This document shows positions 2,897 through 64,000 of a DNA stretch of 64,000 nucleotides, piece by piece. The notes under the pieces were generated by a model. It made no database searches. It saw only the letters and a program-made list of their open reading frames with translations, and had not been told where the DNA came from. Every line of letters begins with the position of its first letter. The first letter of the stretch is position 1. Source of the stretch: Cellulomonas alba. GTDB lineage: Bacteria > Actinomycetota > Actinomycetes > Actinomycetales > Cellulomonadaceae. A program made the translations under genes and the position numbers. The stretch spans positions 1,281,461 to 1,345,460 of the forward strand of contig NZ_JAUCGQ010000001.1 in assembly GCF_030362835.1 (NCBI RefSeq), given 5' to 3'.

Positions 2897-2968
2897 GGCG
2901 GTCCTCTCGCGCGGCGTGCGGTGCGCCGGAAGCCTACCGACGGACGGTGACGGCGAGGCACGGGTGGG

Positions 2969-5026: not shown

Positions 5027-5966
5027 TCGTCGATCCCTCGCCCGTGCCCTGGCCCGGGCGCCCGAAGCCGCGGCCGCCGAAGCCCGTGCTGCAGCTGCCG
5101 TCGACCTTGTCGGACAGGGTGATGGACGTCGCGGTCACCGCGCCGCTGTCGTCCGCCTTGCCGCGCGCGACCGCGCACAGCCCGACCTTGACGGCCGACG
5201 CGTCGGACCTCGCGGTCGTCGTGTAGGTCGTCGAGGCGTCGACCGCGACCTGCTTCGGTGCGGTCGTCGGCGTCGAGCCGCCCGTGCCGAGCTGCAGCGC
5301 GTCGACCGTGATGGTCGAGCCGCTGACGGCCGTCACCTTGCCGCTCGTGAAGCCGCCGAAGCCGCCCGGGAACCTGCCCGCGCCGGGGCCGCCGGTCGGT
5401 CGCTCACCGTTGGCACCCCGCTGGCCGCCGCCCGGGAGGTCCGTCGGCGCGCCCGACGGGCGCTGGCCGTCGCGGCCGCCGGGGAAGCCGCCGCGCCCGC
5501 CGCCGAAGCCGCCGGTGCACGTGCCGTCCGACCCGGCCGGCGTGATCGTCACGCGCGTCACCGCGCCGGACGACGAGGACGACGCGTCCGCGCCCTGGCC
5601 GACGGCGACGGCCGTGACGCACGCGCCGACCTTGACGTCGGCGAGCGTGCCCGTCGTGGTCCGCTCGAACGTGGTCGAGCCGGTCCAGGTGACCGAGGTC
5701 TGGCCGTCGGTGCCGCGGACCTGCGCGACCGTGCCGGTGACGGCCGCGATCTCGCCGGTCACCGCGCCGCCGCCGGGCGCGAGGCCCGGGCCGTCGCCCG
5801 CGGCGCCCTCCGACCCGTTGCCCGGGCCACCGGCCTGGGCGCTCGGCGCGGCCGAGGGCTGGTCGCCGCCCGACCCGGACGACGACCCCTGGCAGCCGGC
5901 GAGCAGGACGACAGCCGCGGTGGCGAGGATCGCCGGGGCCGCGGCGAGGCGCAGACGGGTGTTCAC
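5019..5966 (-). CDS. Lipoprotein with two DUF5666-like beta-barrel repeats
   Basis: I start this gene at GTG 5966, preceded by GAGGAG; the open frame runs further upstream but overlaps the permease. The N-terminus is a lipoprotein signal with lipobox LLAGC (Cys25). Two related segments follow. Each carries a GxVxxVxGxxxxV strand pattern, then VKVGxC, then SGAVTxxxIT, and ends in a GxCxxGFGG tail, as in tandem DUF5666-like OB-type barrels. A Gly/Pro-rich linker with FPGG words separates them. The gene sits between the permease and the second adaptor, with an 8-nt overlap to the latter, so it likely works outside the membrane with the exporter. The function of such proteins is not established. 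Confidence 0.78.
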
Positions 5967-5998
5967 AGGTGTTCTCCTCGGGGATGCGCGCACGCGGA

Positions 5999-7227
<1,229 letters not shown>

Positions 7228-7231
<4 letters not shown>

Positions 7232-7959
7232 CGGATCACCTCGTCGGACTGGATGAGGCCGTCCATGACGCGCACCACCCGCTCGGCGCGCCGCGCGACG
7301 TCGGCCTCGTGCGTGATCAGGACGATCGTGCTGCCCGCGGTGTGCAGGTCGTCCAGGAGCGACAGCACGTCGGCCGTCGACACCGAGTCGAGGTTGCCGG
7401 TGGGCTCGTCGGCCAGCACGAGCGCCGGCTCCCCGACGAGCGCGCGGGCCACGGCGACGCGCTGCTGCTGGCCTCCCGACAGCTCGCCGGGGCGGTTCCG
7501 CGCCCGGTCCGCGAGGCCGACCCGGTCGAGCGCCTCGAGAGCCCGGCGGCGGCGCTCGGCCGCCGGCACGTGCCCGTAGACGAGCGGCAGCTCGACGTTG
7601 CGCCACGCGGGCAGCGACGGCAGCAGGTTGAACTGCTGGAACACGAAGCCGATGCGGCGGTTCCGGATCTCCGCGAGGTCGATCTCGTCGAGCTCGCCGA
7701 CGTCCTCGCCCGCCAGCCGGTACGTGCCCGTCGTCAGCGTGTCCAGGCAGCCGAGGAGGTTCATCAGCGTCGACTTGCCCGACCCCGAGGGGCCCATGAT
7801 CGCGACGTACTCGCCGACGCCGATGCGGAGGTCGACGCCGCGCAGGGCCTGGAACTCGACGGTGCCGGTGCGGTACGTCTTCGTCACGCCCTCGAGCTCG
7901 ATCACGGGCTCGGCCGGGGCCGACGCCCAGCGATCGGGCGCGTAGGTCAGCTCAGCCAC
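7228..7959 (-). CDS. MacB/LolD-type ABC transporter ATP-binding protein
   Basis: I choose GTG 7959 as start. It overlaps the adaptor's stop by 8 nt and gives 243 residues; upstream in-frame codons lie inside the adaptor gene. Walker A is GPSGSGKST, the Q-loop is [10 protein letters not shown], the signature is [15 protein letters not shown], Walker B is [12 protein letters not shown] and the switch His is in LITHEADVA. These match the LolD/MacB/FtsE class that pairs with FtsX-like permeases. It powers the permease encoded next, coupled by a 4-nt GTGA overlap. Confidence 0.95.
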
Positions 7960-9235
7960 GACCGCCGCCCTGGGTGCCGCCGGGCAGGTTGCCGCCGAAG
8001 CCGCCCTCGGGCAGGCGCCCGCCGCCCGGGCGTTCGCCGCCGGGGAACGTCCCCCCGAAGCCTCCCTCACCGCGCTGGCCGCGCTGGCTGCCGGACCCCG
8101 ACCCGCCGCCCGGGGTGAACGTCACGAGGACGACCGAGTCGCCCTCGGTCAGGCCCGACGTGATCTCGGTCATCTGGTTCGCGGTCTCGCCGGTCTTCAC
8201 GGCGACCTTGGTCTGCTTGCCCTCCGCGTCGACCTTCGTCACGTAGCTGACGCCGTCCGTGCCGGTGCTCACCGCGAGGCTCGGCACCGCGAGGACGCCC
8301 GTGCGCTTGGAGTAGATGACCTTCACGTCCGCGGACTCGCCGTCGTGCAGGGTGCTCTGGCCCGGCGTCACCGCGATCGTCACGGGGTACGAGGCGACGC
8401 CCGACGAGCTCGTCGAGAGCAGGCCGATCGCGCTCACCGTGCCGTACACCGTGCCCGCGACGTCGTCGATCGCGATCTCGGCCTGGTCGCCGACCTTGAC
8501 GTTCGCGACCTCCGAGTCGGACACCGTGGCGTCGACGTCCCACGAGTCGGTGCCGACGATCACGAACTGCGCGCTCGACGAGCTCGAGCTGGACGAGCTG
8601 GACGACGAGCTCGGGAAGCTCGAGCTCCCGTTGCTGCTGCCGTTGCTGCCGTTGCTCCCGTTGCCGCTCGAGCCGGTCACGGCGTCGCCGACCGCCAGGT
8701 TGACGGACGTCAGCAGCCCCGACACCGGCGCCGTCAGCGTGGCCGCGCGGTAGTCGTCCTCGGCGGTGTCGACCGCGGCCTGCGCCACGTCGACCTGCGA
8801 CCGCGCCGCCGCGACTCGCGAGACGGACGCGTCGCTCCCGTCGCTCGCGTCCCGCGCGTCCGACCACGTCGCCTCCGCGCTCGCGAGGTCAGCCTTGGCG
8901 GAGAGCAGGTCGGCCTTGAGCTGCAGCGTGTCGACCTTGGCCAGCACGTCGCCCTTCGTGACCTGCGTGCCCTGCGTCACGGGCACCGACGTGACCGTGC
9001 CACTGACCGCGAAGCTCACGTCCTCCTCGACGCTGGGCGAGACCGTGCCCGTCGAGCTGACGGTCTTCTGCATGGTCGTCGTGCTGGCCTGGACGGTGCG
9101 CGTGACGGGCGCCGCGGCGCTCGCCTCGTCCCCCCGGAAGCCGAACCACCAGACCCCGACCCCGGCCAGCGCGAGGACGACGACGGCCGTGGCCACCTTC
9201 GCCCAGGGGTTGGTCCGTCTCCAGACGCGACGCAT
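7952..9235 (-). CDS. HlyD/MacA-type membrane-fusion adaptor, first gene of the export operon
   Basis: A 427-residue adaptor with an N-terminal membrane helix (about residues 12-32), a lipoyl half (FAVSGTVTSVPVTQGTQVTKGDVLAKV), a short coiled hairpin, a Ser-rich insertion of about 45 residues with a run of 13 serines, the second lipoyl half and a beta-barrel domain. The C-terminus is Gly-rich with GGFGGTFPGG-type words. It heads five overlapping genes (9235 to 2969) that together form an actinobacterial MacAB-like exporter. A pair of 11-bp direct repeats lies about 100 bp upstream (9334-9355). The polyserine tract is encoded by mixed serine codons, so it is less likely to be a simple slippage tract. 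Confidence 0.88.
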   Translation of the reverse strand: MRRVWRRTNPWAKVATAVVVLALAGVGVWWFGFRGDEASAAAPVTRTVQASTTTMQKTVSSTGTVSPSVEEDVSFAVSGTVTSVPVTQGTQVTKGDVLAKVDTLQLKADLLSAKADLASAEATWSDARDASDGSDASVSRVAAARSQVDVAQAAVDTAEDDYRAATLTAPVSGLLTSVNLAVGDAVTGSSGNGSNGSNGSSNGSSSFPSSSSSSSSSSSSSAQFVIVGTDSWDVDATVSDSEVANVKVGDQAEIAIDDVAGTVYGTVSAIGLLSTSSSGVASYPVTIAVTPGQSTLHDGESADVKVIYSKRTGVLAVPSLAVSTGTDGVSYVTKVDAEGKQTKVAVKTGETANQMTEITSGLTEGDSVVLVTFTPGGGSGSGSQRGQRGEGGFGGTFPGGERPGGGRLPEGGFGGNLPGGTQGGGRG

Positions 9236-9333
9236 GGTCTCCCTCGTTCACCTCAGCGGGGGCGACGTGCCCCGGGGCGGCCAGTGCGACCGACGGACGC
9301 GAAGGTAGGGAGACGGGCTGGGGCGATCGTCAG

Positions 9334-9355
9334 CCGAGACTGTGGCGAGGCTGTG
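9334..9355 (-). promoter_or_regulatory. Candidate OmpR-type response-regulator box (tandem 11-bp repeats)
   Basis: CCGAGACTGTG (9334-9344) is followed directly by GCGAGGCTGTG (9345-9355); 9 of 11 positions agree. Tandem 11-bp direct repeats are the usual target layout of OmpR/PhoB-family regulators. The site lies about 100 bp upstream of the exporter operon, and related exporters are often controlled by two-component systems. No regulator gene is visible here, so this is a candidate only. Confidence 0.4.
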
Positions 9356-9363
9356 AGGGCAGG

Positions 9364-10998
9364 TCAGACGGTGAGCAGGCCGTCGACGACGAGCCCCTCG
9401 ACCGCAGGCAGGACCTCGGCGGCGACCTCGTGCGCGGGTCGCTCGAGCAGCGCGCCGAGCGCCGCGACGATCTGCCCGACGGTCAGCTCGCCGTCGCACG
9501 CGCCGACGAGCGCGGCGAGCGCCGTGCCCGCCTGGACCGTCCGGCCGAACCCGCCGCCCTGCCGCAGCAGGATGATCTGCGGGTCGACGTCGCCCGGCGT
9601 CAGGTACCGCTCCTCGGTGACGTCCGGCGCGACCACGAGCCGCAGGTCGGCGAGGTCTCGCGTGGCCAGCGCGGCCCGCGCGCGCACCGACGCCTCGATC
9701 GACGGACCGAGCGGCTGCTGCACCGTGCCCGTCACCTCCTCGAGCCGCGCCCAGCCGAGGCCGTCGTCGACGAGCGTCACGATGCCGAACCCGATCGCCT
9801 CGACGTCGCGCGACGCGAAGTCGTCGAGCCACGCGTCGTAGCTCGTCCGCCAGGCCTCGCGGTCGCGGTCAGGCGTCGTGCCGCCGTCCCGGATCCACGT
9901 CTCGGCGTACTGCGCGGGGTCCTGCAGCTCGCGCTGGACCACCCAGCCGGACAGCCCCGACTCGGCGAGCCACTCCCCGACGCGCTCGTCCCAGCGCTCG
10001 CCGCGGCGGACCTCCCAGTTGCCGAGCAGCTGCGCGACGCCCCCCGGTGCCAGGACCGCGCGGACGCCGGTGACCAGCTCGCGCACGATCGCGTCGCCCG
10101 TGCGGCCCGCGTCGCGGTACTCGTACGTCGGGACGTCCGGGTCGCGCGGCGTGATGACGAACGGCGGGTTGCTGACGACGAGGTCGAACCGCTCGCCCGC
10201 GACGGGGTCGAGCATCGAGCCGAGCCGGAGGTCGAGGCGCGCGGGGGCGGTGGGTGCGGCCGGGCCGGCCGGCGGGTGCGCGGCGCCGTCGGTGCGGTCG
10301 GACGCAGCGAGGTGCGTCGGGCTCTCGGTCCCCTGGCCCTCGGCGCGGACACCGGCGAGCGCGGCGTTGAACCGCGCGAACGCGAGCGCGCGGTGCGAGA
10401 TGTCGGTGGCCGTCACGCGCCCGGCGTGGAGCAGCGCGTGCAGCGACTGGATGCCGCACCCCGTGCCGAGGTCGAGGGCGCGCGCGACGGGCCGGCGCAC
10501 CGTCACCTGGGCGAGCGTCGTCGACGCGCCGCCGACGCCGAGCACGTGGTCGGTGCGCAGCGCGCGGCCGGTGGCCAGCTCGCCGAGGTCCGACGCGATC
10601 CACCAGTCGACCTCGCGCGTCTCTCCGCCGGGGTCGACGGCGTCCAGCGCGGTGTACGGACGCAGGTCGACGAGCGCGTGCACCTCGTCGTCCGCCGCCG
10701 TCCCGGAGCTCGCGACGAGCCCGAGTCGCGCGGCGCCGGCGACGCCGACCGTCGGCAGCGCGCGCTCGAGAGCCCGACGGCGCACCGGCGCGCCCAGCAC
10801 GAACGCCCGGATCAGCGCCGCGGCGGGCTCGTCGCTCGACGCCGTCGCGCGCAGCGCGGGCACCTGCTCCTCCCGGTGCAGCGCGTCGGACGCGACGGGA
10901 CCGAGCAGCTCGTCCACGCCGGTGACGGTGAAGCCGGCGGCCGCGAGGTCGGCCCGCAGCGCGTCGACGAGGGCGGGCTCGGTGCGAGGCGTGTCCAC
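9364..10998 (-). CDS. Class I SAM-dependent methyltransferase, RlmG/HemK-like
   Basis: A 544-residue protein. The central part is a Rossmann methyltransferase: motif I is LDLGTGCGIQSL (residues 175-186), a second acidic strand carries TATDIS, and NPPF occurs at 277-280. The NPPF word is typical of enzymes methylating exocyclic or amide nitrogens, such as rRNA guanine or release-factor glutamine. The N-terminal about 130 residues look like the extra domain of large RlmG-type proteins, and the C-terminal about 180 residues form a winged-helix-like extension. A Pro/Ala-rich spacer (about 238-252) interrupts the fold between motif I and NPPF. The gene stands alone, with its stop close to the exporter promoter. 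The substrate is uncertain. Confidence 0.8.
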   Translation of the reverse strand: MDTPRTEPALVDALRADLAAAGFTVTGVDELLGPVASDALHREEQVPALRATASSDEPAAALIRAFVLGAPVRRRALERALPTVGVAGAARLGLVASSGTAADDEVHALVDLRPYTALDAVDPGGETREVDWWIASDLGELATGRALRTDHVLGVGGASTTLAQVTVRRPVARALDLGTGCGIQSLHALLHAGRVTATDISHRALAFARFNAALAGVRAEGQGTESPTHLAASDRTDGAAHPPAGPAAPTAPARLDLRLGSMLDPVAGERFDLVVSNPPFVITPRDPDVPTYEYRDAGRTGDAIVRELVTGVRAVLAPGGVAQLLGNWEVRRGERWDERVGEWLAESGLSGWVVQRELQDPAQYAETWIRDGGTTPDRDREAWRTSYDAWLDDFASRDVEAIGFGIVTLVDDGLGWARLEEVTGTVQQPLGPSIEASVRARAALATRDLADLRLVVAPDVTEERYLTPGDVDPQIILLRQGGGFGRTVQAGTALAALVGACDGELTVGQIVAALGALLERPAHEVAAEVLPAVEGLVVDGLLTV

Positions 10999-11060
10999 CG
11001 GGCCATCCTCGCGGACTGCACAGGTCGCGCGCCGCCCGGGGTCGCGTCCACGAGGCCCCC

Positions 11061-11147
11061 GAACCGTCCGTGCGGAGGAACGGCCGACACGCCGTCCGCA
11101 GGCGCCTGCCCTCCGGCGTGTCGCCGCGTGGTCCGCACCGACGGTTC
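11061..11147. repeat. Hairpin-forming intergenic repeat (copy A)
   Basis: The outer arms GAACCGTCCGTGCGGA (11061-11076) and TCCGCACCGACGGTTC (11132-11147) are inverted with one mismatch. Inside are a second inverted pair around CGACACGCCG and CGGCGTGTCG and a central palindrome GCAGGCGCCTGC. The words recur at 12937-12984 and 23019-23101. It lies between the methyltransferase and the ThuA-domain gene. Confidence 0.6.
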
Positions 11148-11191
11148 CGCACCCGCAGTGGCCGCTGCTGATGCCCCCGTCACAGGTCGGG

Positions 11192-11899
11192 TCAGAGCGC
11201 CAGCAGCCAGCCGATCGCCGCCGTCAGCAGCGCTCGGTGGTCGGGGGACTCGAAGGAGCGGACGTCGTGGCCGAGCGCGTCGTACAGCACGCGGCCCGGC
11301 CCCGGCGCGACCCAGACGACCGGGTGCGCGCCCGCGGACACCGGCCGGTCGGACGCCTCGTCGGCGGTGACGTCGGCGAGCACGAGCGGCCGGACGCCGG
11401 GGTCGACCTCGAGGTCCGCGTACCGCTCGTCGACGACCGCGAGCGGACCGAGGCCCGCGGTGACCGGGTGCGGGTCGCCGGCGACGCGGAGCACGGCCGG
11501 TCCGAGCGGCGGGTGCCACGAGCGATCCTCGACCCACCGGCCGCCGACCTCGCGCGCCCACCGCGGGTCGTCCCGGAAGGCCATCGCCGACTGGTGCACG
11601 GCGAGCACCGGGACGCCCTCGGCGACCCAGTCCGCGCGCCGGTCGTGGAACCCGCGCCACGCGTCGTCGTCGCCGTCGAACTCCGCGTCCCGGCGGCCGT
11701 CGCCCGCGACGACGACCAGCAGACCCGGCGCGTCGAGCCCGCCGAGCGCGTCGGGCCGTGTGCCCCGGACGTCGACCGGCAGCCCGACGTCCGCGAGCAG
11801 GGCCGCGAGCGCGTGCGACGTCGCGGCGACGTCGTGCCACGGGTCGGCGTACCGGCCCTGGCCGACGAGGACGAGGGCGGCATCGGTGACGGGCGCCAT
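11192..11899 (-). CDS. ThuA-domain (trehalose utilisation-like) protein
   Basis: I choose ATG 11899 (235 residues); the frame is open further upstream but runs into the divergently oriented kinase gene. The fold is of the class I glutamine amidotransferase-like ThuA type: an early LVLVGQGRYADPWHD strand-loop, LLVVVAGDG, a GVPVLAVHQSAMAF nucleophile-elbow-like region, HPVTAGLGPLAVVDERYADLE, and the C-terminal GRVLYDALGHDVRSFE and HRALLTAAIGWLL words typical of ThuA proteins. Known relatives act in sugar utilisation, but their exact reaction is unclear. The gene is divergent from the APH-like kinase, with 76 bp between the two starts. Confidence 0.8.
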   Translation of the reverse strand: MAPVTDAALVLVGQGRYADPWHDVAATSHALAALLADVGLPVDVRGTRPDALGGLDAPGLLVVVAGDGRRDAEFDGDDDAWRGFHDRRADWVAEGVPVLAVHQSAMAFRDDPRWAREVGGRWVEDRSWHPPLGPAVLRVAGDPHPVTAGLGPLAVVDERYADLEVDPGVRPLVLADVTADEASDRPVSAGAHPVVWVAPGPGRVLYDALGHDVRSFESPDHRALLTAAIGWLLAL

Positions 11900-11975
11900 C
11901 GCGCCAGCGTGCCACGCGGCCGGCGCAATCCCCTGGCGTCCCGGTCGCGCACCCTGCTCGACTGCCCGCGTGAGG

Positions 11976-12851
11976 ATGCACGCCGACGAGCTCGACCTCC
12001 CGACGGACCTCGTGGCGCGCCTGGTCGCCGAGCAGCTGCCGCGGTGGGCCGGGCTGCCGGTGCGGCGGGTGGCGTCGAGCGGCACCGACAACGCGATGTT
12101 CCGGCTCGGCGACCGCATGGTCGTCCGGCTGCCGCGCATCCACTGGGCGGCCGGCACCGTGGACCACGAGGTGCGGTGGCTGCCGCTCGTCGCGGGTCGC
12201 CTGCCGGTCGAGACGCCGCGAGTCCTCGCGACGGGCAACCCGTCCGACGACTACCCGTGGTCGTGGTCCGTGCTGACGTGGCTCGACGGGGTGAACCCGC
12301 GGATCGACGCGCTCGACGACCCCGACGCGCTGGCCCGCGAGCTGGTCACGCTCGTCCGCGCGATCCGCGCGCTCGAGCTCCCGGACGGCGAGCCGAAGGA
12401 CCAGCCGCTGAGCGGTCGGGACGACCAGGTCCGCCGCGACCTGGCGGCGCTGGCCGACGACGTCGACATCGCGACCCTCGCGGCCATCTGGGACGAGGCC
12501 CTCGCGCACGCCGAGTGGGACGGCACCCGCACGTGGGTGCACCACGACCTCGCGCCCGGGAACCTGCTGCTGCGCGACGGCCGGCTCAGCGGGCTGATCG
12601 ACTTCGCCGGCATCGGCCTCGGCGACGCGGCCTCCGACCTCGGGGTGGCGTGGAACCTGCTGCCGGCGGGCGCGCGGGCCACGCTGCGCGACGGGCTCGG
12701 CGTCGACGACGCCACCTGGGTGCGCGGCCGCGCGCGGGCGCTCGCGCAGGCGCTCGTCCAGCTGCCGTACTACCGGGACACGAACCCGGTGCTCGCCGCG
12801 AACGCGTGGCGCGTGCTGCGCGAGGTCCTGGCGGACGCGCGACACGCCTGA
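11976..12851 (+). CDS. Aminoglycoside phosphotransferase-family kinase (APH fold)
   Basis: A 291-residue protein starting at ATG 11976 (GTG 11970 is also possible). The APH fold is marked by the N-lobe VASSGTDNAMFRLGDRMVVR, the catalytic loop HHDLAPGNLLL (in place of HGD) and the metal-binding IDFAGIGLGD. Length and motifs match the large, mostly uncharacterised group of environmental APH/choline-kinase-like enzymes, not a known resistance gene. These phosphorylate small alcohols, such as antibiotics, sugars or homoserine, with ATP. It faces the pyrophosphatase gene, with a strong hairpin between them at 13037-13076. Confidence 0.85.
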   Translation: MHADELDLPTDLVARLVAEQLPRWAGLPVRRVASSGTDNAMFRLGDRMVVRLPRIHWAAGTVDHEVRWLPLVAGRLPVETPRVLATGNPSDDYPWSWSVLTWLDGVNPRIDALDDPDALARELVTLVRAIRALELPDGEPKDQPLSGRDDQVRRDLAALADDVDIATLAAIWDEALAHAEWDGTRTWVHHDLAPGNLLLRDGRLSGLIDFAGIGLGDAASDLGVAWNLLPAGARATLRDGLGVDDATWVRGRARALAQALVQLPYYRDTNPVLAANAWRVLREVLADARHA

Positions 12852-12936
12852 CGGCCCCGCGCGGCCGGGCGCGGGCGGCGATCGGTCTGCTGGACGCCGC
12901 GCGATCCGGGTGCGCCGTACCGAACGTGCGGCCGGC

Positions 12937-12984
12937 GCGGCGACACGCCGATCTCGCGGCCTCCGCACGCGGCGTGTCGGCCGC
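12937..12984. repeat. Hairpin-forming intergenic repeat (copy B)
   Basis: GCGGCGACACGCCG (12937-12950) pairs with CGGCGTGTCGGCCGC (12970-12984) with one bulged base. The loop contains CCTCCGCACG, resembling the outer-arm word of copies A and C. It lies downstream of the APH kinase. Confidence 0.5.
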
Positions 12985-13036
12985 TCGCCCGCACACCTGG
13001 CACGGCTCGCGGTCGGCACCGCCCCGTCCCGGACAG

Positions 13037-13076
13037 GACGAGGCCCCGGTCCTCCGCGGAGAACCGGGGCCTCGTC
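13037..13076. terminator. Bidirectional terminator hairpin
   Basis: A perfect 14-bp stem, GACGAGGCCCCGGT with its complement, around a 12-nt loop. It sits between the convergent APH kinase (stop 12851) and pyrophosphatase (stop 13087), only about 10 bp beyond the latter, so it probably ends both transcripts. Confidence 0.8.
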
Positions 13077-13086
13077 GTCCGAGCGC

Positions 13087-15387
13087 TCAGTGCGTGAGCG
13101 CGGGAGCCGCCTCGGGCTCGTCGACGCCGTCGCGGTCGACGCGCGCCGCCCGCAGGCGGGACGCCACCACCGCGCCGAACGCGATGAGCGCCGCGACGAT
13201 CGCGATCGCCAGGCGCGCCGGCTGGTTGGCGCCCGAGCCCACCGAGATCGCCACCACGGCCGGCGCGATGAGCACCGACACGAGGTTCATGACCTTGATG
13301 AGCGGGTTGATCGCCGGGCCGGCGGTGTCCTTGAACGGGTCGCCGACGGTGTCGCCGATGACCGCCGCGTCGTGCGCCGCGGAGCCCTTCCCGCCGAAGT
13401 TGCCGTCCTCGACGATCTTCTTCGCGTTGTCCCACGCGCCGCCCGAGTTCGCAAGGAACACGGCCATGAGCACGCCCGCGGCGATGGCGCCCGCGAGGAA
13501 CCCGGCGAGCGGGCCGACGCCGAGGCCGAAGCCGACCGCGATCGGGGCGAACGCCGCGAGCAGACCCGGCGTCGCGAGCTCGCGCAGCGAGTCACGCGTG
13601 CAGATGTCGACGACCTTGCCGTACTCAGGGCGGACCTCGCCGGTCATGATGCCCGGGAAGTCGCGGAACTGGCGGCGCACCTCGAACACGATGGCGCCGG
13701 CCGCCCGGGTCACCGCGTCGATCGCGAGGCCCGAGAACAGGAACACGACCGCCGCGCCGAGGATCACGCCGACGAGGGTCACCGGCGAGATGACCTCGTA
13801 CCGCGTCATGGCGGCGACGATGTCGCTGCCGACGTGCACGCCGGGCTTGGCGAGCGCGATCGACACCGCGTCGGCGTACGAGCCGAACAGCGCGGTCGCG
13901 GCGAGCACGGCCGTCGCGATCGCGATGCCCTTCGTCACGGCCTTCGTGGTGTTGCCGACGGCGTCGAGGTCCGTGAGGATCTGCGCGCCCTCGGGCGTCA
14001 CGTCGCCGGACATCTCGGCGATGCCCTGCGCGTTGTCGCTGACGGGCCCGAACGTGTCCATCGCGACGATGACGCCGACGGTCGTGAGCAGGCCGCAGCC
14101 CGCGAGCGCGACCAGGAACAGCGACAGCGCGATCGACCCGCCGGCGATGAGGAACAGCGCGCAGATCGCCGCGGCGATGATGCCCGCGGTGTAGACGGCC
14201 GACTCGAAGCCGACGCCGATGCCCGACAGGACGACCGTCGCGGCACCGGTGCGGGTCGTCGCGGCGACGTGCAGCGTCGGCTTGCTCGTCGTCCCCGTGA
14301 AGTAGCCGGTGACCCAGAGGATGACGCCCGCGAGGACGACGCCGATCGCGACGGCCGCCGACGCGATGAGCCGCGGGTCGCCGGCGTGCTCCGTGAGCTT
14401 CGCGGTGCCGTCGGTGAACGCCGCGAACGTGTCGGGCAGGTACACGAACGCCACGACCGCGGCGAGCACGACGCCGATGACGGCCGCGACGTAGAACCCG
14501 CGGTTGATCGCCGCGAGACCGCTCTCCTGGCCGCGCACGCGCGTGGTGAACACGCCGATGACCGCGACGAGCGCGCCGATCGACGTCACGAGGAGCGGGA
14601 ACACGAGGCCCTTCTCGCCGAACGCCGCACGGCCGAGGATCAGCGCCGCGACGAGCGTCACGGCGTACGACTCGAACAGGTCGGCGGCCATGCCGGCGCA
14701 GTCGCCGACGTTGTCGCCCACGTTGTCCGCGATGGTCGCCGCGTTGCGCGGGTCGTCCTCGGGGATGTGCTGCTCGACCTTGCCGACGAGGTCGGCGCCC
14801 ACGTCGGCCGCCTTGGTGAAGATGCCGCCGCCGACGCGCATGAACATCGCGAGCAGCGCCGCGCCGAAGCCGAAGCCCTCGAGCACGGAGGGCGCGTCAC
14901 CCTTGTAGATCAGGACGACCGCCGCCGCGCCGAGCAGGCCCAGCCCGACCACGGACATGCCGACGACGCCGCCGGTGCGGAACGCGATGCGCGCGCCCTC
15001 GGCGCGGCCGTTCTCCTGCGACGCGGCCGCGGCCACGCGCAGGTTGGCCCGCGTCGCGAGCCACATGCCCAGGAAGCCGATCGACGCCGAGAACACGGCG
15101 CCGACCAGGAAGAAGATGGACCGTCCCACCTTGATGCCCGCATCACCGGGCAGCAGGAACAGCAGCGCGCAGACGACGACCGCGAACAGCGCGAGCGTCC
15201 GGAACTGCCGGTTGAGGTACGCGCTCGCGCCCTCCTGGACGGCCTGCGCGATGTCGCGCATGGACTGGGTGCCTTCACCGGCTGCGAGCACCTGACGGCG
15301 CAGCACGGCTGCCACGAGCAGGGCGGCGATTGCCACGGCCGCGATGACACCGACGATCGTGAGGCTCGTGGAACCGAGCTCGACCAT
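13087..15387 (-). CDS. hppA: Membrane proton-pumping pyrophosphatase, K+-independent
   Basis: This enzyme hydrolyses cytoplasmic pyrophosphate and pumps protons across the membrane. I choose ATG 15387 (766 residues), with GAGGAGGA just before it. The long multi-helix protein has the substrate loop GADLVGKVEQHIPEDDPRN and the IADNVGDNVGD catalytic run, then GNTTKA. The Lys in GNTTKA (Lys482) replaces the Ala of K+-dependent enzymes, so this should be the K+-insensitive proton pump. The gene stands alone, with a terminator just downstream and a 490-bp structured intergenic region upstream. It recovers energy from biosynthetic pyrophosphate. Confidence 0.97.
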   Translation of the reverse strand: MVELGSTSLTIVGVIAAVAIAALLVAAVLRRQVLAAGEGTQSMRDIAQAVQEGASAYLNRQFRTLALFAVVVCALLFLLPGDAGIKVGRSIFFLVGAVFSASIGFLGMWLATRANLRVAAAASQENGRAEGARIAFRTGGVVGMSVVGLGLLGAAAVVLIYKGDAPSVLEGFGFGAALLAMFMRVGGGIFTKAADVGADLVGKVEQHIPEDDPRNAATIADNVGDNVGDCAGMAADLFESYAVTLVAALILGRAAFGEKGLVFPLLVTSIGALVAVIGVFTTRVRGQESGLAAINRGFYVAAVIGVVLAAVVAFVYLPDTFAAFTDGTAKLTEHAGDPRLIASAAVAIGVVLAGVILWVTGYFTGTTSKPTLHVAATTRTGAATVVLSGIGVGFESAVYTAGIIAAAICALFLIAGGSIALSLFLVALAGCGLLTTVGVIVAMDTFGPVSDNAQGIAEMSGDVTPEGAQILTDLDAVGNTTKAVTKGIAIATAVLAATALFGSYADAVSIALAKPGVHVGSDIVAAMTRYEVISPVTLVGVILGAAVVFLFSGLAIDAVTRAAGAIVFEVRRQFRDFPGIMTGEVRPEYGKVVDICTRDSLRELATPGLLAAFAPIAVGFGLGVGPLAGFLAGAIAAGVLMAVFLANSGGAWDNAKKIVEDGNFGGKGSAAHDAAVIGDTVGDPFKDTAGPAINPLIKVMNLVSVLIAPAVVAISVGSGANQPARLAIAIVAALIAFGAVVASRLRAARVDRDGVDEPEAAPALTH

Positions 15388-58008: not shown

Positions 58009-58794
58009 TCAGAGGCCCCAAGTCGCCCGACGCCGCGCCACCTGCGCGATCGCCTTGGCGCGGTCACCCCCCAGCCGCGGCGGCAGCAGCCGGAACAGCG
58101 CGGGGACGTCGTGCCGCTGGACGACGAGCGCGTCCTCGGAGCGGACCGGCCCGCGGAGCTCCAGCTCGCCGTGCACGACGATCACCGCACGCACGCTCGC
58201 GCCCGCGCACGCCGCGGCCAGCAGCATGCCCTGGACGCGCTCGGCCTCGAGGCGCGCGTCGCGCAAGTACGTGGCGGGCAGGCCGTCGACGGACATCGCG
58301 CGGCCCTCGACGACGACGTGCTGGCCGGCGTGGAACCGCTCGGTGACGGTGTAGATGCCGGCCGGGCCGATGAGCAGGTGCGCGACCCGGTTGCCCTGAC
58401 GGCCGAGCGGCACGCCGTGCAGCACGTGCCAGTCCTCGTCCGTCAGCCGGTCGAGCCGCGCGCGGACCGTGCTGCCGCGCTCGCGGCGCAGCGCGAGCTC
58501 GTCCGGGCCCTCGTCGGGCGCCCCGAGCCAGCCGCGCAGCGCGGCCTCGTCCTCCTGGGACAGCGCGGCACCGGGCCCGGGCACCGGAAGCACGAGCTCG
58601 GTGACGTCGTTGCGGAGGAACTCCTGCGCGGCCTTGCGCAGGCTCCCCTCGAGCTCGGGGTCCTCGACGACGACCTCGCCGGACTGCAGGTCGACCGAGC
58701 CGACGCGCGCCCCGGTCCCTTGCGTGACGAAGAGGCGGTCGGCGCCGTAGCGCCGCCAGCGACGAACAGTCAGGACCTCCTCCACGTGAGGCAT
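58009..58794 (-). CDS. Protein with nuclease-related (NERD)-like domain
   Basis: A 261-residue cytoplasmic protein from ATG 58794 (GTG 58803 is the alternative; neither has a clear ribosome site). Residues about 110-240 resemble the NERD domain: DWHVLHGVPLGRQGNRVAHL, then LIGPAGIYTVTERFHAGQ, VEGRAMSVDGLPATYLRDA and AVIVVHGEL. NERD domains share the restriction-endonuclease-like core but usually lack proven activity. The N-terminal 100 residues have a beta-rich start (GADRLFVTQGTGARVGSVDL). The function is unknown. Confidence 0.75.
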   Translation of the reverse strand: MPHVEEVLTVRRWRRYGADRLFVTQGTGARVGSVDLQSGEVVVEDPELEGSLRKAAQEFLRNDVTELVLPVPGPGAALSQEDEAALRGWLGAPDEGPDELALRRERGSTVRARLDRLTDEDWHVLHGVPLGRQGNRVAHLLIGPAGIYTVTERFHAGQHVVVEGRAMSVDGLPATYLRDARLEAERVQGMLLAAACAGASVRAVIVVHGELELRGPVRSEDALVVQRHDVPALFRLLPPRLGGDRAKAIAQVARRRATWGL

Positions 58795-58886
58795 TATCGG
58801 CACCGCGGCGCGGTGACTTCAGCGGTGTCGACCATCCGGACGCGTCCCGCCGGGGCGGGTTCACCCCGGCGGGACCGAACTCCTGG

Positions 58887-59303
58887 TCAGGCGCCCGCAG
58901 ATCCCTCGTCAGGCTCGAACGACAGGCTGACCGAGTTCATGCAGTAGCGGTCGCCGGTCGGCGTCTGGGGCGCGTCGTCGAAGACGTGACCCAGGTGGGA
59001 CCCGCAGCGCGCGCACCGGACCTCGGTGCGCACCATGCCCAGGGTCCGGTCGGTCAGGAGCTCGACGCGGTCGCCCGCGAGCGGCGAGAAGAAGCTCGGC
59101 CACCCGCAGTGCGAGTCGAACTTGGTGTCCGAGCGGAACAGCTCGTTGCCGCACGCGCGACAGCGGTAGACGCCGACGCGCTTCTCGTCCAGCAGCGCAC
59201 CCGTCCACGGCCGCTCCGTGCCGGCCTTCCGGAGCACGGCGAACTCGCGCGGCTCCAGCTCGAGCGCCCACTGCTCGTCGGACTTCGTCACCTCGTAGGC
59301 CAT
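58887..59303 (-). CDS. msrB: Peptide-methionine (R)-S-oxide reductase
   Basis: MsrB repairs methionine-R-sulphoxide in proteins, using thioredoxin or mycoredoxin. I use ATG 59303 with GGAGGG four bases upstream, giving 138 residues. Two zinc CxxC pairs are present (YRCRACGNEL and VRCARCGSHLGHV). The catalytic Cys121 lies in DRYCMNSVSL, and GWPSFFSPL is conserved. It is divergent from the GGDEF-EAL gene. Confidence 0.96.
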   Translation of the reverse strand: MAYEVTKSDEQWALELEPREFAVLRKAGTERPWTGALLDEKRVGVYRCRACGNELFRSDTKFDSHCGWPSFFSPLAGDRVELLTDRTLGMVRTEVRCARCGSHLGHVFDDAPQTPTGDRYCMNSVSLSFEPDEGSAGA

Positions 59304-59519
59304 GAGGCCCTCCTTCGTCTCGATGCGTGCCGCGGGGACGGGCGACGGCCCGCGCGCCCGGGGCACGGCGACCGTTCCAACACTCGACACGTCCGACCCG
59401 TTCCCGACGCGCCGGGCGTCGCTCTGACCTGGAATGTCGCTTGCGCAGGGGTCGGCGTCCTACCCTCGATCCGCACGCGCCGCACGGCACGTCGCCTCGA
59501 CAGCACCGCCGAGCACCCC

Positions 59520-61811
59520 GTGAGGACCCGCGTGCCAGCAGCCCGCAGCCGCCGCCGGTGGTCCCCGACGCGCTACTTCGTCGTGGTCAGCGTCGTCGCG
59601 ATGCTCGCGCTCGGGGCCGCCCTCATCTGGGTCGCGTCGAGCGTCATGGGGCAGCAGTCGCTGCGCGACGGCACGTCGTCGGCGACGTCCGTGCAGTCGT
59701 TCGCGGTCGGCCCGCTGCCCGCCGAGGCGTTCGGCACCGAGGTCCTCACGCCCGAGCAGACCGACGCGGTGCGCGACTCGACGTCGCGGTTCTCGTCGCG
59801 CCTCGTCGACCTGCGCCTCTGGAACACCGACGGCCTGCTCATGTACTCGGGCAACGACGACGCGACGACGGGCTTCCCGGACGGAGCGCGGTTCGACGCG
59901 GTCAAGCGCACGGGCGAGCCCGAGGCGCGCGTGATCACCGACGTGCGCGGCGTGAAGAGCCCGCAGTCGGGGGCGCGCGGCACGCAGCGCGAGGTGCTCG
60001 ACGTCTACGTTCCGGTGCGGGTGCGCGACACCGCCGGTGCGCAGCCCGACAGCGGCCTCGGGCCCGACACGGTGATCGGCGTGGCCGAGGTGATGCTCGA
60101 CCACGAGGAGTCGGCGAACGCGCTGCAGCACGCGGTCCGCACGGTCGCGCTCGTCGTGGGCGGCGGGCTGCTGCTGCTCTGGCTCCTGCTGTTCCGCGCG
60201 GTGCGCACGACGTCGAACCGCCTGCAGGCCACCGCGATGGAGAACGCGCGGCTCGCGCTGCTCGACTCGCTGACGGGCCTGCCGAACCGCCGGCTGCTCA
60301 ACGACCGGATGCGGCACGCGATCGAGGAGGCCGAGGCCGACGGCACGAGCGTCGGTCTCGTGCTGCTCGACATCGACCGGTTCAAGGACATCAACGACTC
60401 GCTCGGCCACGACCGCGGCGACGAGCTGCTCGAGCAGGTCGCCGCACGGCTGCGGAGCGCGCTGCGCGAGGACGACATCGTGGCCCGCCTCGGCGGCGAC
60501 GAGTTCGCGATCCTGCTGCCCGACGTGCGGACGGTGCAGAACGCCGCGCGGCTCGCCGAGCGGGTGCGCACGCTGTTCGTGCCGCCGTTCACGCTCGGCG
60601 AGATGCCGCTGCACGTCGACACGTCGATCGGCGTCGCGTGCCTGCCGGACCACGCGTCCGACGCGTCGTCGCTCATGCGGATGGCCGACGTCGCCATGTA
60701 CGCCGCGAAGCACCACCGCACGGGCATCGCGGTGTACTCGGCCGACGAGGACGACTCGTCGCCGTCGCGCCTCGTGCTGCTCGGCGACCTGCACCGGGCG
60801 CTCGACCTCGGGCCCGACGAGCCGCCGCAGCTCGCGCTGCACTACCAGCCGAAGATCGACCTCGAGACGGGCCGGACCGTCGGCCACGAGGCGCTCATGC
60901 GCTGGAACCACCCCACGCGCGGCATGCTCATGCCCGGCACGTTCATCACGCTCGCCGAGCAGTCGGGTCTCATCCACGACGTCACGAAGTTCGCGCTGCG
61001 CGAGTGCGTCGGGCAGCTCGCGCGGTGGCGCGAGCAGGGCAGCGCGGCTCCCGTGGCCGTCAACCTCTCGGCGCACGACGTCGCGACCGCCACCGTGGTG
61101 GACGTGATCGAGGAGCTGCTCGCGCAGCACGGCGTCCCGGCGGAGCTGCTCGAGGTCGAGATCACCGAGACCGCGCTCGTGGCGGACCGCTCCCGCGTCG
61201 TGCCCGTGCTCGAGCGGCTCGGCGAGCTCGGCGTGCGCGTCGCGATCGACGACTTCGGCATCGGCAACACGTCGATCTCCCAGCTGCGTGACCTGCCGGT
61301 CGACGCGCTGAAGATCGACCGGCTGTTCGTCGCCGACCTCGCCGAGGGCGGCCGCGACAGCTCCGAGGTCGTCGTCCAGGCCATGGTCGACCTCGCGCAC
61401 TCGTTCGAGCTCCGCGTGATCGCCGAGGGCGTCGAGGACCGGCCGACGGCCGACATCCTGCGCCGGCTCGGCGTCGACGAGGCGCAGGGCTTCCTGTACG
61501 CCGCGGCGCTGCCGGCCGACGAGGTGCGGCCGACGCGCAACGTCCCGCAGCCGCGTCGCGGCTCCCCGGCCCGGCGCTCGACCGGCGCGACCGCGGTCGC
61601 CGTCGCCCCCGCGGTCGGCACCGATCTCGCCGTCGAGCTGGACGAACCGGACCACGGACCGGATTCACCCGCCGACCCGCTGCGCGCACCGGCGGACGGC
61701 CCGCCGGCCGCCACGAACGGGAAGCCGCAGGTCAGGCGGGCCGACGACCGCGGCCGCCGGTCTGCACCCGGCCCGGCGCGTCGCCGCCGGAGCGACCCAC
61801 CGCAAGGCTGA
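59520..61811 (+). CDS. Membrane GGDEF-EAL protein (c-di-GMP synthesis and breakdown)
   Basis: A 763-residue protein from GTG 59520. An N-terminal helix (about residues 19-42), an extracytoplasmic sensor region (to about 205) and a second helix (about 206-228) precede a GGDEF domain with intact GGDEF at 325-329. An inhibitory RxxD site (REDD) lies five residues earlier. The EAL domain starts near 430 with intact EAL at 457-459, VNLSAHDV, ITETAL, IDDFGIGNTSIS, KIDRLF and AEGVE. Both activities could therefore work. The C-terminal about 105 residues are a low-complexity basic/Pro tail. It is followed by the TasA/SipW-like genes, and c-di-GMP often controls surface structures. Confidence 0.95.
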   Translation: MRTRVPAARSRRRWSPTRYFVVVSVVAMLALGAALIWVASSVMGQQSLRDGTSSATSVQSFAVGPLPAEAFGTEVLTPEQTDAVRDSTSRFSSRLVDLRLWNTDGLLMYSGNDDATTGFPDGARFDAVKRTGEPEARVITDVRGVKSPQSGARGTQREVLDVYVPVRVRDTAGAQPDSGLGPDTVIGVAEVMLDHEESANALQHAVRTVALVVGGGLLLLWLLLFRAVRTTSNRLQATAMENARLALLDSLTGLPNRRLLNDRMRHAIEEAEADGTSVGLVLLDIDRFKDINDSLGHDRGDELLEQVAARLRSALREDDIVARLGGDEFAILLPDVRTVQNAARLAERVRTLFVPPFTLGEMPLHVDTSIGVACLPDHASDASSLMRMADVAMYAAKHHRTGIAVYSADEDDSSPSRLVLLGDLHRALDLGPDEPPQLALHYQPKIDLETGRTVGHEALMRWNHPTRGMLMPGTFITLAEQSGLIHDVTKFALRECVGQLARWREQGSAAPVAVNLSAHDVATATVVDVIEELLAQHGVPAELLEVEITETALVADRSRVVPVLERLGELGVRVAIDDFGIGNTSISQLRDLPVDALKIDRLFVADLAEGGRDSSEVVVQAMVDLAHSFELRVIAEGVEDRPTADILRRLGVDEAQGFLYAAALPADEVRPTRNVPQPRRGSPARRSTGATAVAVAPAVGTDLAVELDEPDHGPDSPADPLRAPADGPPAATNGKPQVRRADDRGRRSAPGPARRRRSDPPQG

Positions 61812-61907
61812 TCCGGTGCACACTCTTCAGGTCGCACCGCTTCGTGCCGATTCACGACGTCATGCCGGGGTCTCTCGGCTCGAGAGCCACCCGGAGGAGG
61901 CAGCACC

Positions 61908-62660
61908 GTGATGGACGACCTGCTGCAGGAGATGATCGACCCGACCCCCGAGCCGGGTGACCGGCCGCGGCGGCGCCGACTGATCGCGACCATCGCGATC
62001 GTGGGCCTGGCGATCGTCGGCATCACGTCGCTCACCACGGGCGCGCTCTTCACCGACCGCGAGCAGACCGACGACGGCTTCAAGACCGGCACGGTCGACC
62101 TGACGACTGGCCAGCTGAAATTCACGACCACGGCGGGCAACATGCTGCCGGGCGACACCACGTACTCGGCGATCGACGTGAAGAACGCGGGCAGCCTCAA
62201 CCTCCGCTACGCGGTCGAGTACAGCGCGTCCAACGACCCGGCGGCCGCGGGCATCGACACCGGCGTCGAGATGTCGGGCACGACCGGCCTGCCGGACGAC
62301 GCCGGCACGGGCACCGAGATCGGCGGCGACCTCACCGACGTGCTGCACCTGTCGGTGTACGCCGTGGGGAGCCAGAGCGACTGCGCCGCGCCCGCCGCCA
62401 GCGACCGCATCTACCCCGCCGACACCAGCGCGGCCCCGGCCCTCACGGCCGGCTCGGGCAACCCGCTGGTCGGCAACAAGTCCGAGGGCCAGGACGCCAA
62501 GGCCGGGGCGATCGCCGCCGACCGCGTGCTCGGTGCGGGCGACGCCGAGGTGCTGTGCTTCGTCACCACCATGGACATCGACGCCGGCAACAAGTACCAG
62601 GACAGCGGCGCCCACCTGACGCTCGACTTCTACGCCGAGCAGACGGCCAACAACAGCTGA
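61908..62660 (+). CDS. TasA/camelysin-like secreted protein with SipW-type signal
   Basis: A 250-residue protein. GTG 61908 and ATG 61911 both follow GGAGGAGG. A charged leader ends RPRRRRL, then a hydrophobic segment IATIAIVGLAIVGITSLTTGA, then ALFTDREQT, the SipW-dependent signal pattern of TasA/camelysin proteins. The mature part has GTVDLTTG, the beta-rich PGDTTYSAIDVKNAGSLNLR and a late C-terminal strand (AHLTLDFYAEQTANN), as in the TasA/CalY fold that makes extracellular fibres or protease-like surface protein in bacilli. The signal peptidase gene follows 4 bp later. A surface or matrix role is inferred. Confidence 0.85.
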   Translation: MMDDLLQEMIDPTPEPGDRPRRRRLIATIAIVGLAIVGITSLTTGALFTDREQTDDGFKTGTVDLTTGQLKFTTTAGNMLPGDTTYSAIDVKNAGSLNLRYAVEYSASNDPAAAGIDTGVEMSGTTGLPDDAGTGTEIGGDLTDVLHLSVYAVGSQSDCAAPAASDRIYPADTSAAPALTAGSGNPLVGNKSEGQDAKAGAIAADRVLGAGDAEVLCFVTTMDIDAGNKYQDSGAHLTLDFYAEQTANNS

Positions 62661-62664
62661 TCGG

Positions 62665-63417
62665 ATGACCACAGCCCCCGGCCACTCGGAGCCCTTCGTC
62701 GAACGACGAGCACCCCGGGCGACCGTCGACCCGCGTGCGCGCCGTGCCGGCAGGCCGGCGCGCACGCCCGTGCCGCCGCGGCCGTGGTGGCGGCGGGCCG
62801 TCTCGGCGGCGCTCTGGACCGTCGTCGCCGTGGGAGCGCTCGCGTACGGGATCTCGCTCGCCGTGCCGCTGTGGTTCCAGGTGCACGACGAGCGGCTGCT
62901 GGTCGTGACGTCGGGCTCGATGGCGCCGTACTTCGACGCGGGTGACGCGGTCGTCATGCACTCGGTCGACGACGCGTCCGACCTCAAGGAGGGGCAGGTC
63001 GTCTCGTTCTGGCCAGTGGGCTCGAGCCGGCTCGTGACGCACCGCATCGTGCACCTCGTGAAGCTGCCCGTCATGCACGCGGACGGCACCGGCAAGAGCG
63101 TGCCGACCCTCGACGCCGCGGGTCGGCCGAAGCTCAACCCGTACATCATCACCAAGGGCGACGCGAACTCGTCGACCGACCCGGACGCGACGCCCGTCAC
63201 GCGCGTGCGCGGCGTGGTGCTCGACGTGCACCACCGCTGGGGATTCGTGCTCGACTGGGCGAGCTCGCCGGGCGGACGTGCGGTGATGCTCGTGCCGCCG
63301 CTGGTCGCGCTCGCAGCGCTCGAGCTGATGGCGCTCGCGTCCGACCGTCGCCGGCGGCGCGCCAAGCCGACGGCGCGCCCGGAGGACCGGAGCATCGATG
63401 CGTACCTGCTCGGATGA
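62665..63417 (+). CDS. SipW-type (ER-type) signal peptidase I
   Basis: A 250-residue signal peptidase. It has one membrane helix (about residues 48-72), the nucleophile Ser85 in TSGSMAPYFDAGD and His126 in LVTHRIVHL replacing the usual Lys base, with Asp166 in TKGDANSS, as in SipW and archaeal/ER enzymes. A C-terminal membrane helix (about residues 210-230) follows. The N-terminal about 40 residues are Arg/Pro-rich. It lies 4 bp after the TasA-like gene and presumably cleaves it and the short relative downstream. Confidence 0.93.
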   Translation: MTTAPGHSEPFVERRAPRATVDPRARRAGRPARTPVPPRPWWRRAVSAALWTVVAVGALAYGISLAVPLWFQVHDERLLVVTSGSMAPYFDAGDAVVMHSVDDASDLKEGQVVSFWPVGSSRLVTHRIVHLVKLPVMHADGTGKSVPTLDAAGRPKLNPYIITKGDANSSTDPDATPVTRVRGVVLDVHHRWGFVLDWASSPGGRAVMLVPPLVALAALELMALASDRRRRRAKPTARPEDRSIDAYLLG

Positions 63418-63454
63418 GCAGTGGCCGAAGGACCGGCCCGCGTACGCTCGCGCC

Positions 63455-63889
63455 ATGACGTCGGGAGCCGGTGCGGCGCGCACCGAGCGGGCCACGTGGG
63501 TCCGGCTCGGCGCCGCCCTGCTGATCGGCGTCGCCGCGCTCGTCGTCCCGGCCGTCGTGCCGCACCCCGGGCACACCGGGGCGGTCTACACCGACCGCGA
63601 GCAGACCTCGGCCGACTTCCATGCCGGTCCGACCGACGCCCCGACGGACGCCGCCACCGACACCCCGACCGACGCGCCCTCGACCGCGCCGACGGACGGC
63701 GCGACGACCGCGCCGGCGAGCCTCGCGAACCTGGCCGGGCTCGCCGCCCAGGGTGACGCACGCGGCCAGGGGCACGGAGCCGGGCACGGAGCCGGGCACG
63801 GTGCCGCGCACGGGTCCGCCGGGCACGCGTCCGAGGGGCGCGTGCCCGGCGGGCAGCCGTCAGGCGCGCACGCCGCGAGCGACCAGTAG
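63455..63889 (+). CDS. Short secreted protein, truncated TasA-like start with Thr/Asp and Gly/His tail
   Basis: A 144-residue protein from ATG 63455 (GTG 63421 is possible). A hydrophobic helix ends AVVPHPGHTG, followed by AVYTDREQTSADFHAG. This repeats the signal-junction word of the TasA-like protein (ALFTDREQTDDGFKTG). The rest is low-complexity: PTDAATDTPTDAPSTAPTDG, then an Ala/Gly/His tail with GHGAGHGAGHGAAHG. So the SipW-type signal region is kept but the beta-sandwich domain is gone. It overlaps the convergent right-edge gene by 30 bp. It could be a second substrate of the adjacent SipW, a wall linker or a metal binder. Confidence 0.72.
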   Translation: MTSGAGAARTERATWVRLGAALLIGVAALVVPAVVPHPGHTGAVYTDREQTSADFHAGPTDAPTDAATDTPTDAPSTAPTDGATTAPASLANLAGLAAQGDARGQGHGAGHGAGHGAAHGSAGHASEGRVPGGQPSGAHAASDQ

Positions 63890-64000
63890 CGTCCCGTCCG
63901 GGTCGTACCGCAGCGACAGCTCGCGCAGCCGCCGCGCACCCTCCGGCGAGAACACGCGGTCGGCCCACTCGGGGCCTGCGCCCGCGGTGAAGTTCGGCAG
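63860..64000 (-). CDS. FAD-linked oxidoreductase, C-terminal BBE-type end (5' part outside window)
   Basis: The last 46 codons of a leftward gene are visible: LPNFTAGAGPEWADRVFSPE, then GARRLRELSLRYDPDGTLL and VARGVRA with TGA at 63862-63860. The end YDPDGTLLV resembles the berberine-bridge-enzyme C-terminal region of FAD-binding (PCMH) oxidoreductases. Its 3' end overlaps the 3' end of the convergent secreted-protein gene by 30 bp. The assignment rests on this short end only. Confidence 0.7.
   Translation of the reverse strand: MPNFTAGAGPEWADRVFSPEGARRLRELSLRYDPDGTLLVARGVRA

Follow-up and report, generated by a model that had tools for sequence, protein, structure and literature searches.

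Directly behind a gene for a GGDEF-EAL protein, the soil bacterium Cellulomonas alba carries three open reading frames that the original prediction had read, in succession, as a camelysin/TasA-like protein, a signal peptidase and a third ORF. This arrangement raises the question of whether these genes specify a TasA-type fibre, and whether the c-di-GMP enzyme beside them has a part in it. TasA fibres are a model for donor-strand assembly in Gram-positive bacteria. To our knowledge, it is chiefly bacilli in which their control and end subunits have been described, and little is known of c-di-GMP surface targets in the actinobacterial phylum. The stretch analysed here, referred to as the window, comprises 64,000 nucleotides, and both the predicted order of the ORFs and their coordinates were confirmed (Table 1). 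The four-gene set looks like a TasA-type surface-fibre kit. Related actinobacteria retain the set together with a c-di-GMP sensor enzyme, suggesting a tie between fibre building and the signal.

Table 1 Features of the putative fibre locus; gene coordinates are positions within the window.
Feature	Coordinates	Strand	Basis or description
Window	contig 1, 1281461-1345460		3.80 Mb genome
Cache-GGDEF-EAL protein (predicted)	59418..61811	+	extracytoplasmic sensor domain flanked by two TM helices, followed by diguanylate cyclase and phosphodiesterase domains; start position approximate
Sensor segment including both TM helices	59550..60200	+	query for searches and for model
TasA/camelysin-like fibre subunit (putative), 250 residues	61908..62660	+	PF12389, profile against PDB TasA, model
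Cytoplasmic leader MMDDLLQEMIDP...RRRR upstream of the signal TM helix	61908..61979	+	conservation
Putative donor strand of the TasA-like protein, L47 to F58, after the inferred cleavage site	62046..62081	+	
ER/SipW-type signal peptidase (predicted), 250 residues, Ser85-His126-Asp166	62665..63417	+	TIGR02228
Third protein, 163 residues (proposed initiator)	63398..63889	+	signal of SipW type, a single strand and a tail rich in PT and in Gly-His
Putative donor strand of the third protein, YTDREQTSADF	63587..63619	+	

The end of the GGDEF-EAL gene (61811) and the TasA-like ORF are separated by 96 nt, and the third ORF and the peptidase gene share 20 nt at the peptidase stop. Both flanking genes lie on the opposite strand. 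The upstream one is likely msrB and the downstream one likely encodes a FAD-type oxidoreductase, names read from the sequence rather than taken from a family search. An Rfam scan of positions 58500-64000 gave no match at E ≤ 1, indicating no known riboswitch in this region, and a riboswitch ahead of tasA was rejected on these grounds.

The TasA-like ORF scored 33.2 bits for the Pfam camelysin family PF12389, above its cut-off of 22.5, and 26.9 bits against NCBIfam NF046066, the equivalog model for the biofilm matrix protein TasA, which requires 450. A profile of 35 sequences searched against the PDB matched the TasA fibre (8aur, E 1.5e-8) and monomeric TasA (5of1, E 4.9e-8). The protein is accordingly described here as a predicted relative of TasA and not as the Bacillus TasA equivalog. 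An AlphaFold model of the mature protein, built from 14 sequences, consisted mostly of strands with a pLDDT of 76; in this monomer model the first 12 residues, the donor-strand segment, fell below 50. When the model was compared with the PDB by Foldseek, three TasA chains (5of2, 5of1 A and 5of1 B) were the sole matches at E ≤ 0.001, the best at 1.6e-5, with modest TM-scores of 0.42-0.46. TasA also headed the VIA-align list (Z 9.3 and 9.2), on which the next row, an unrelated protein, was close at 8.4. Structure prediction of the 250-residue protein had been proposed as a check on its identity, and with both search programs the predicted fold of the mature protein was best matched by TasA.

The proline box (F29, Q232, F200 and P62) is the most conserved part of the TasA subunit interface, according to PMC10151520. 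Three of these four residues were mapped by profile alignment: F29, P62 and Q232 correspond to F48, P81 and Q245, each of which was present in 43 of 43 aligned sequences, window included. Cys159 and Cys217 were likewise invariant across the 43 aligned sequences, suggesting a disulphide. Among confirmed TasA relatives in named genomes, all 13 loci were from Cellulomonas, with 35-45% identity to the window TasA. A camelysin-type secreted metalloprotease, as the name of the matched Pfam family (Peptidase_M73, above cut-off) would have it, was rejected as highly improbable because the zinc motif HExxH is absent from the sequence, and the predicted fold and the interface residues are those of TasA.

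A second reading holds that the protein is a monomeric surface beta-sandwich that is released by SipW and does not polymerise. The window genome encodes four further SipW-type peptidases, and these adjoin small secreted proteins for which we know of no fibre. Against such a monomer, the invariant residues include those of the TasA subunit interface described in PMC10151520, and the locus encodes a separate strand protein. We consider the monomer quite improbable and the assignment of the set to a TasA-type fibre very likely. In such a fibre, the TasA-like protein would be the repeating subunit, exported by the Sec pathway on its SipW-type signal and cleaved after about Ala46. Polymerisation would then proceed by donor-strand exchange, with the N-terminal strand of each subunit entering its neighbour.

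The predicted cleavage junction was compared between loci. The window TasA scored 15.2 bits against TIGR04088, the model for SipW-dependent signals, below its cut-off of 19; the model matched 22 of 35 aligned TasA-like sequences at E ≤ 0.1, the best at 1.5e-4. In 42 tabulated loci the TasA junction read F, then T, S or R, then D (41/42), followed mostly by N, Q or T and by D or E. A search for the TDREQT signal junction across actinobacteria had been proposed. The exact string proved peculiar to the window genome, relatives vary at it, and it was discarded as a family-wide junction.

The product of the adjoining gene scored 64.3 bits against TIGR02228 (cut-off 51.85), and its Ser85, His126 and Asp166, like the SGSM and THR motifs, are conserved in all 42 sequences aligned, window included. 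An alignment with SEC11A superposed the Ser and the His, although the match itself was weak (E 0.086). Against NF046067, the NCBIfam model of Bacillus SipW, the score was 48.1 bits where 190 are needed. The claim of a SipW-type Ser-His signal peptidase was thus borne out, and the enzyme is predicted to be of the ER/archaeal Ser-His type. It would serve as the dedicated enzyme for cleaving the subunit.

The GGDEF-EAL protein scored 166.5 bits for GGDEF and 219.4 bits for EAL in Pfam. Its GGDEF, EAL, DDFG and EGV motifs were intact in 43 of 43 aligned sequences, window included, in agreement with the prediction that both active sites of the c-di-GMP enzyme are preserved. A model of the outer sensor segment (pLDDT 82.8) gave as its best Foldseek match the extracellular domain of WalK (E 6.3e-7), followed by KinD (E 2.3e-5), and we take both matched domains to be Cache-type sensors. 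No Pfam Cache match was obtained at E ≤ 1, and the PAS-like fold between the two TM helices rests on Foldseek. The model thus points to a Cache-type, PAS-like extracytoplasmic sensor domain. Six GGDEF matches were found in the window genome in all.

To follow the row through relatives, a set of 43 loci from one family was assembled. They are counted as loci and not as independent species because the 13 named Cellulomonas loci may overlap other genomes of the same genus. Three of the 43 loci (L041-L043) are near-identical. Two genomes with divergent TasA and no sensor match, G022 (L075) and G124 (L076-L078), were left out. The GGDEF-EAL gene lay upstream of tasA in 43/43 loci; the gap between them measured -3 to 187 nt in 42 loci and at most 194 nt in L034. 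The peptidase gene lay downstream of tasA in 42/43; in the one exception, L044, the contig ends first. Linkage with the signal peptidase is therefore conserved among relatives. Within one family, this linkage is a single inheritance and not 43 independent events.

The surroundings of the row were less constant. Of the 29 home-genus (g1) loci, 26 had an msrB gene no more than 700 nt away and 17 had the downstream FAD gene. The msrB gene was likewise near in the single locus of a second genus (g2) and in 0/13 loci of three further genera, and the FAD gene was present in none of the 14 loci outside g1. The two tested flanking genes thus vary between genera while the GGDEF-EAL-tasA pair stays.

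Co-occurrence was then counted by genome. A TasA match was present in 32 of the 150 genomes of the family; 30 of these were of the leader type described below and all 30 had the sensor, whereas the other two (G022 and G124) carried the divergent TasA and lacked it. Five of the 118 family genomes without a TasA match had a sensor match, clear in G079 and G125 and weak in G013, G036 and G053. At the level of the order, 37 of 347 genomes had a TasA match, 11 of them of the leader type (E < 1e-70). The sensor occurred in these 11 genomes and no others, and the remaining 26, with weaker TasA matches, lacked it. At the level of the class, 24 of 394 genomes had a TasA match (E ≤ 1e-10), with seven of the leader type (E < 1e-40), six with the sensor and five shared (Fisher 1.6e-9, not corrected for descent). 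One class-level genome (G798) had the sensor and no TasA match at E ≤ 1e-10. The suggested co-occurrence of TasA-like genes with GGDEF-EAL genes is therefore real and conserved.

Gene order and physical linkage differed outside the family. In two genomes of another taxonomic order (G663 and G730) the row ran tasA, peptidase, LamG third gene and GGDEF-EAL, with the enzyme last and not first. The sensor enzyme was on a separate contig from the TasA set in G486 and G507, and zero sensor matches were obtained in G493, which had the TasA set, and in the 78%-complete G524, which had TasA. From the 26 sensor-less genomes of the order, 18 loci were read, and all 18 had a SipW-profile match within about 1 kb of TasA, some at just E 0.004. 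A GGDEF domain occurred in two of the 18, about 5 kb away in L115 and, in L121, in convergent orientation at about 330 bp from the match to the peptidase; the Cache sensor occurred in none. The notion that any GGDEF gene may be found beside any TasA gene was rejected on these counts.

These counts bear on a third reading, in which the TasA-like fibre system is real and the GGDEF-EAL enzyme is merely a co-inherited neighbour that does not act on the fibre. The single inherited event behind the linkage of one family would allow this, as would the 18 of 18 order-level loci in which TasA-SipW pairs do without the enzyme and the genomes whose sensor lacks a match (G493) or is on another contig (G486 and G507). 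However, the pair is kept while the two tested flanking genes change between genera, the same partner recurs, with the genes arranged differently, in another taxonomic order, and presence and absence agree in 11/11 genomes of the order and 30/30 leader-type genomes of the family. A mere neighbour is thus unlikely, and we regard a functional tie between the fibre set and the c-di-GMP enzyme as probable. The membrane-bound Cache-GGDEF-EAL protein would read an outside cue and set the level of c-di-GMP, which in turn would control the making or the export of the fibre.

The subunit carries a conserved cytoplasmic leader of the form MDDLLxEM..P...RRRR ahead of its signal helix. Residues D3, M9, P12, R21, R22 and R24 were invariant (43/43). 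In leader-type proteins of other orders, the acidic start and the Arg run were present in 6/6 and MDDLL or MDDDLL in 4/6. No such leader was seen in the TasA-like proteins from the 18 loci of the order that were read and lack the sensor enzyme; judged from these alignments, leader and GGDEF-EAL enzyme co-vary. It is a candidate contact point for c-di-GMP control, and we tentatively suggest that it may be the control point of the fibre system.

The third protein had been described as a shorter relative of TasA. This description was not upheld, as the resemblance between the two is confined to the signal junction and a single putative strand. A third-type ORF with a hydrophobic N-terminal stretch was found at the peptidase stop in 42 of 42 loci with sequence beyond the peptidase (the contig of L044 ends earlier). 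A start at 63455 was rejected in favour of 63398 because in 36 of the 42 relatives the start, as picked by script, falls 20 nt ahead of where the peptidase stop ends; in two others the distance is 17 and 23 nt, and four were placed later.

Junctions in the third proteins were counted in a pattern-free MAFFT alignment of all 42, in which gaps may slide toward matches. The residue two past the junction Ala was F, L or Y in 41/42 and hydrophobic in 42/42, an Asp followed two further on in 32/42, the column about ten further was hydrophobic in 42/42, and a Pro came soon after in 29/42. A pattern-based placement demands F, Y, L or M first and prefers Asp at +2, so its counts for those two positions are no evidence and the MAFFT counts are given instead; by eye, it misplaced the junction in L053 and L062. 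By this placement, the third protein of six Cellulomonas loci ends 18 residues past the first residue of the junction. In the window protein, the spacing of the aromatic residues in YTDREQTSADF equals the F48-F58 spacing in the window TasA. None of ten third proteins passed TIGR04088, the best reaching 12.2 bits against 19.

Beyond the strand, the third proteins diverge. Laminin_G_3 scored above cut-off in four of seven long family members scanned and in 6/6 from other orders; the long proteins of L052, L062 and L070 gave no Laminin_G_3 match above cut-off. The tail is of low complexity in Cellulomonas, the window genome included. In the window protein, no domain passed its cut-off, the central Ig domain of TapA is absent, and the tail is PT-rich and Gly-His-rich. 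The Gly-His-rich part, at window positions 63760-63830 (GHGAGHGAGHGAAHG), could bind metal.

These features could also describe a wall or membrane anchor or an adhesin, with a junction that is common to subunit and third protein only because they have a peptidase in common. Pro-rich, PT and Gly-His tails resemble wall-spanning linkers, LamG is of the adhesin or lectin type, and a preference of the peptidase for certain residues at its cleavage site could explain the likeness at the start. Yet the alternating hydrophobic pattern persists beyond the cleavage site, and in the six short Cellulomonas proteins there is little beyond the strand. The precedent of TapA also speaks against an anchor: according to PMC10151520, B. 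subtilis secreting only TapA residues 44-57 (14 residues) forms a proper biofilm, and TapA is proposed to provide the first donor strand. From this sufficiency and this proposed role we infer that the third protein works like TapA, although, having no Ig domain, it is not filed as TapA. An anchor or adhesin is rather unlikely, and we somewhat favour the third protein as the initiator of the fibre. It would be cleaved like the subunit, supply the first donor strand and remain at one end of the fibre, bearing a LamG lectin-like domain in other orders and some genera of the family and a low-complexity tail in Cellulomonas.

Taken as a whole, a four-part surface fibre system of TasA subunit, peptidase, initiator and c-di-GMP enzyme is a reasonably likely explanation of the locus. 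A more specific and speculative proposal is a c-di-GMP-gated, lectin-ended donor-strand pilus of actinobacteria. In this proposal the enzyme and the MDDLL..RRRR leader might gate export or assembly and not only transcription, and the LamG initiator might be the adhesive end, with Cellulomonas retaining only one secreted beta strand and a tail. Biofilm formation and attachment to plant material, as originally envisaged, would be further possible roles.

The genes of B. subtilis are ordered tapA-sipW-tasA, unlike the order tasA-sipW-third of the window. The two systems are alike in the TasA fold, in the SipW-type Ser-His peptidase and in a second secreted protein with a subunit-like N-terminal strand. 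The accessory gene overlaps the peptidase gene in both, as PMC10151520 reports for the stop and start codons of the B. subtilis pair. The third protein here has LamG or no recognised domain in place of the Ig domain of TapA, and the long conserved cytoplasmic leader, the c-di-GMP enzyme in the row and the invariant Cys159 and Cys217 also set the locus apart from B. subtilis. With the SipW-dependent proteins of NCBIfam (TIGR04088, TIGR04089 and TIGR04090) it has the signal type and the neighbouring peptidase in common; the window TasA falls below the cut-offs of TIGR04088 and TIGR04090, and TIGR04089 was absent among the matches listed. Chaperone-usher pili, which are built with a donor strand and carry a tip lectin, are comparable in working only, by the donor strand and an end subunit with a sugar-binding-type domain; unlike in those pili, no chaperone or usher gene is present in the row, and the proteins are unrelated. 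Archaeal bundling pili and thread filaments are donor-strand fibres too, a likeness by description only, and we know of no c-di-GMP partner for either. The bundling pili are called TasA-like in PMC9674648.

Finding TasA and SipW in an actinobacterium is in itself nothing new, given the 18 enzyme-less loci in the order and the four other SipW-type peptidases of the genome. Since TasA-SipW pairs exist without the enzyme, what is new lies in the c-di-GMP enzyme, the conserved MDDLL..RRRR leader and the lectin or single-strand initiator, and the locus represents a TasA-type fibre system of new make-up. In the literature searched, mostly open-access, no report was found of a Cellulomonas TasA, of SipW with LamG or of a TasA row with a c-di-GMP enzyme. 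If the reading is correct, an actinobacterial TasA relative with a fixed c-di-GMP sensor enzyme ties fibre building to the messenger. A natural initiator of just some 18-20 residues after cleavage would also make it easy to test whether a single strand suffices to start a fibre.

Other SipW and TasA loci were encountered in the course of this work. In the window genome, a second SipW cluster (L137, G000:C1:2355500-2373500, positions 3988-14115) holds three SipW-type peptidase genes in about 9 kb, near small secreted proteins of which several have SipW-like junctions, and the six GGDEF matches of the genome all lie elsewhere. A fifth SipW-type peptidase (L138, G000:C1:1230000-1241000, positions 5200-7221) is accompanied by two adjoining small proteins with SipW-like junctions. 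A sensor-type GGDEF-EAL gene in L124 (G079, positions 4900-11702) stands in tandem with two other GGDEF-EAL genes, with no TasA match in the 13 kb read. The TasA and SipW pair of L121 (G236, positions 3311-5054), with its convergent GGDEF gene and no Cache sensor match, possibly represents an independent c-di-GMP neighbour. On contig 9 of G124 (L076-L078, about 8.3-41.9 kb), a stretch of about 34 kb contains six or more TasA-like ORFs, some with TDRE-like junctions, together with one SipW-like peptidase, in what looks like an expanded subunit family. In L152 (G709, positions 2934-5801), TasA-like ORFs in a row are followed by a SipW-like peptidase, and similar matches were found in G758, of the same genus.
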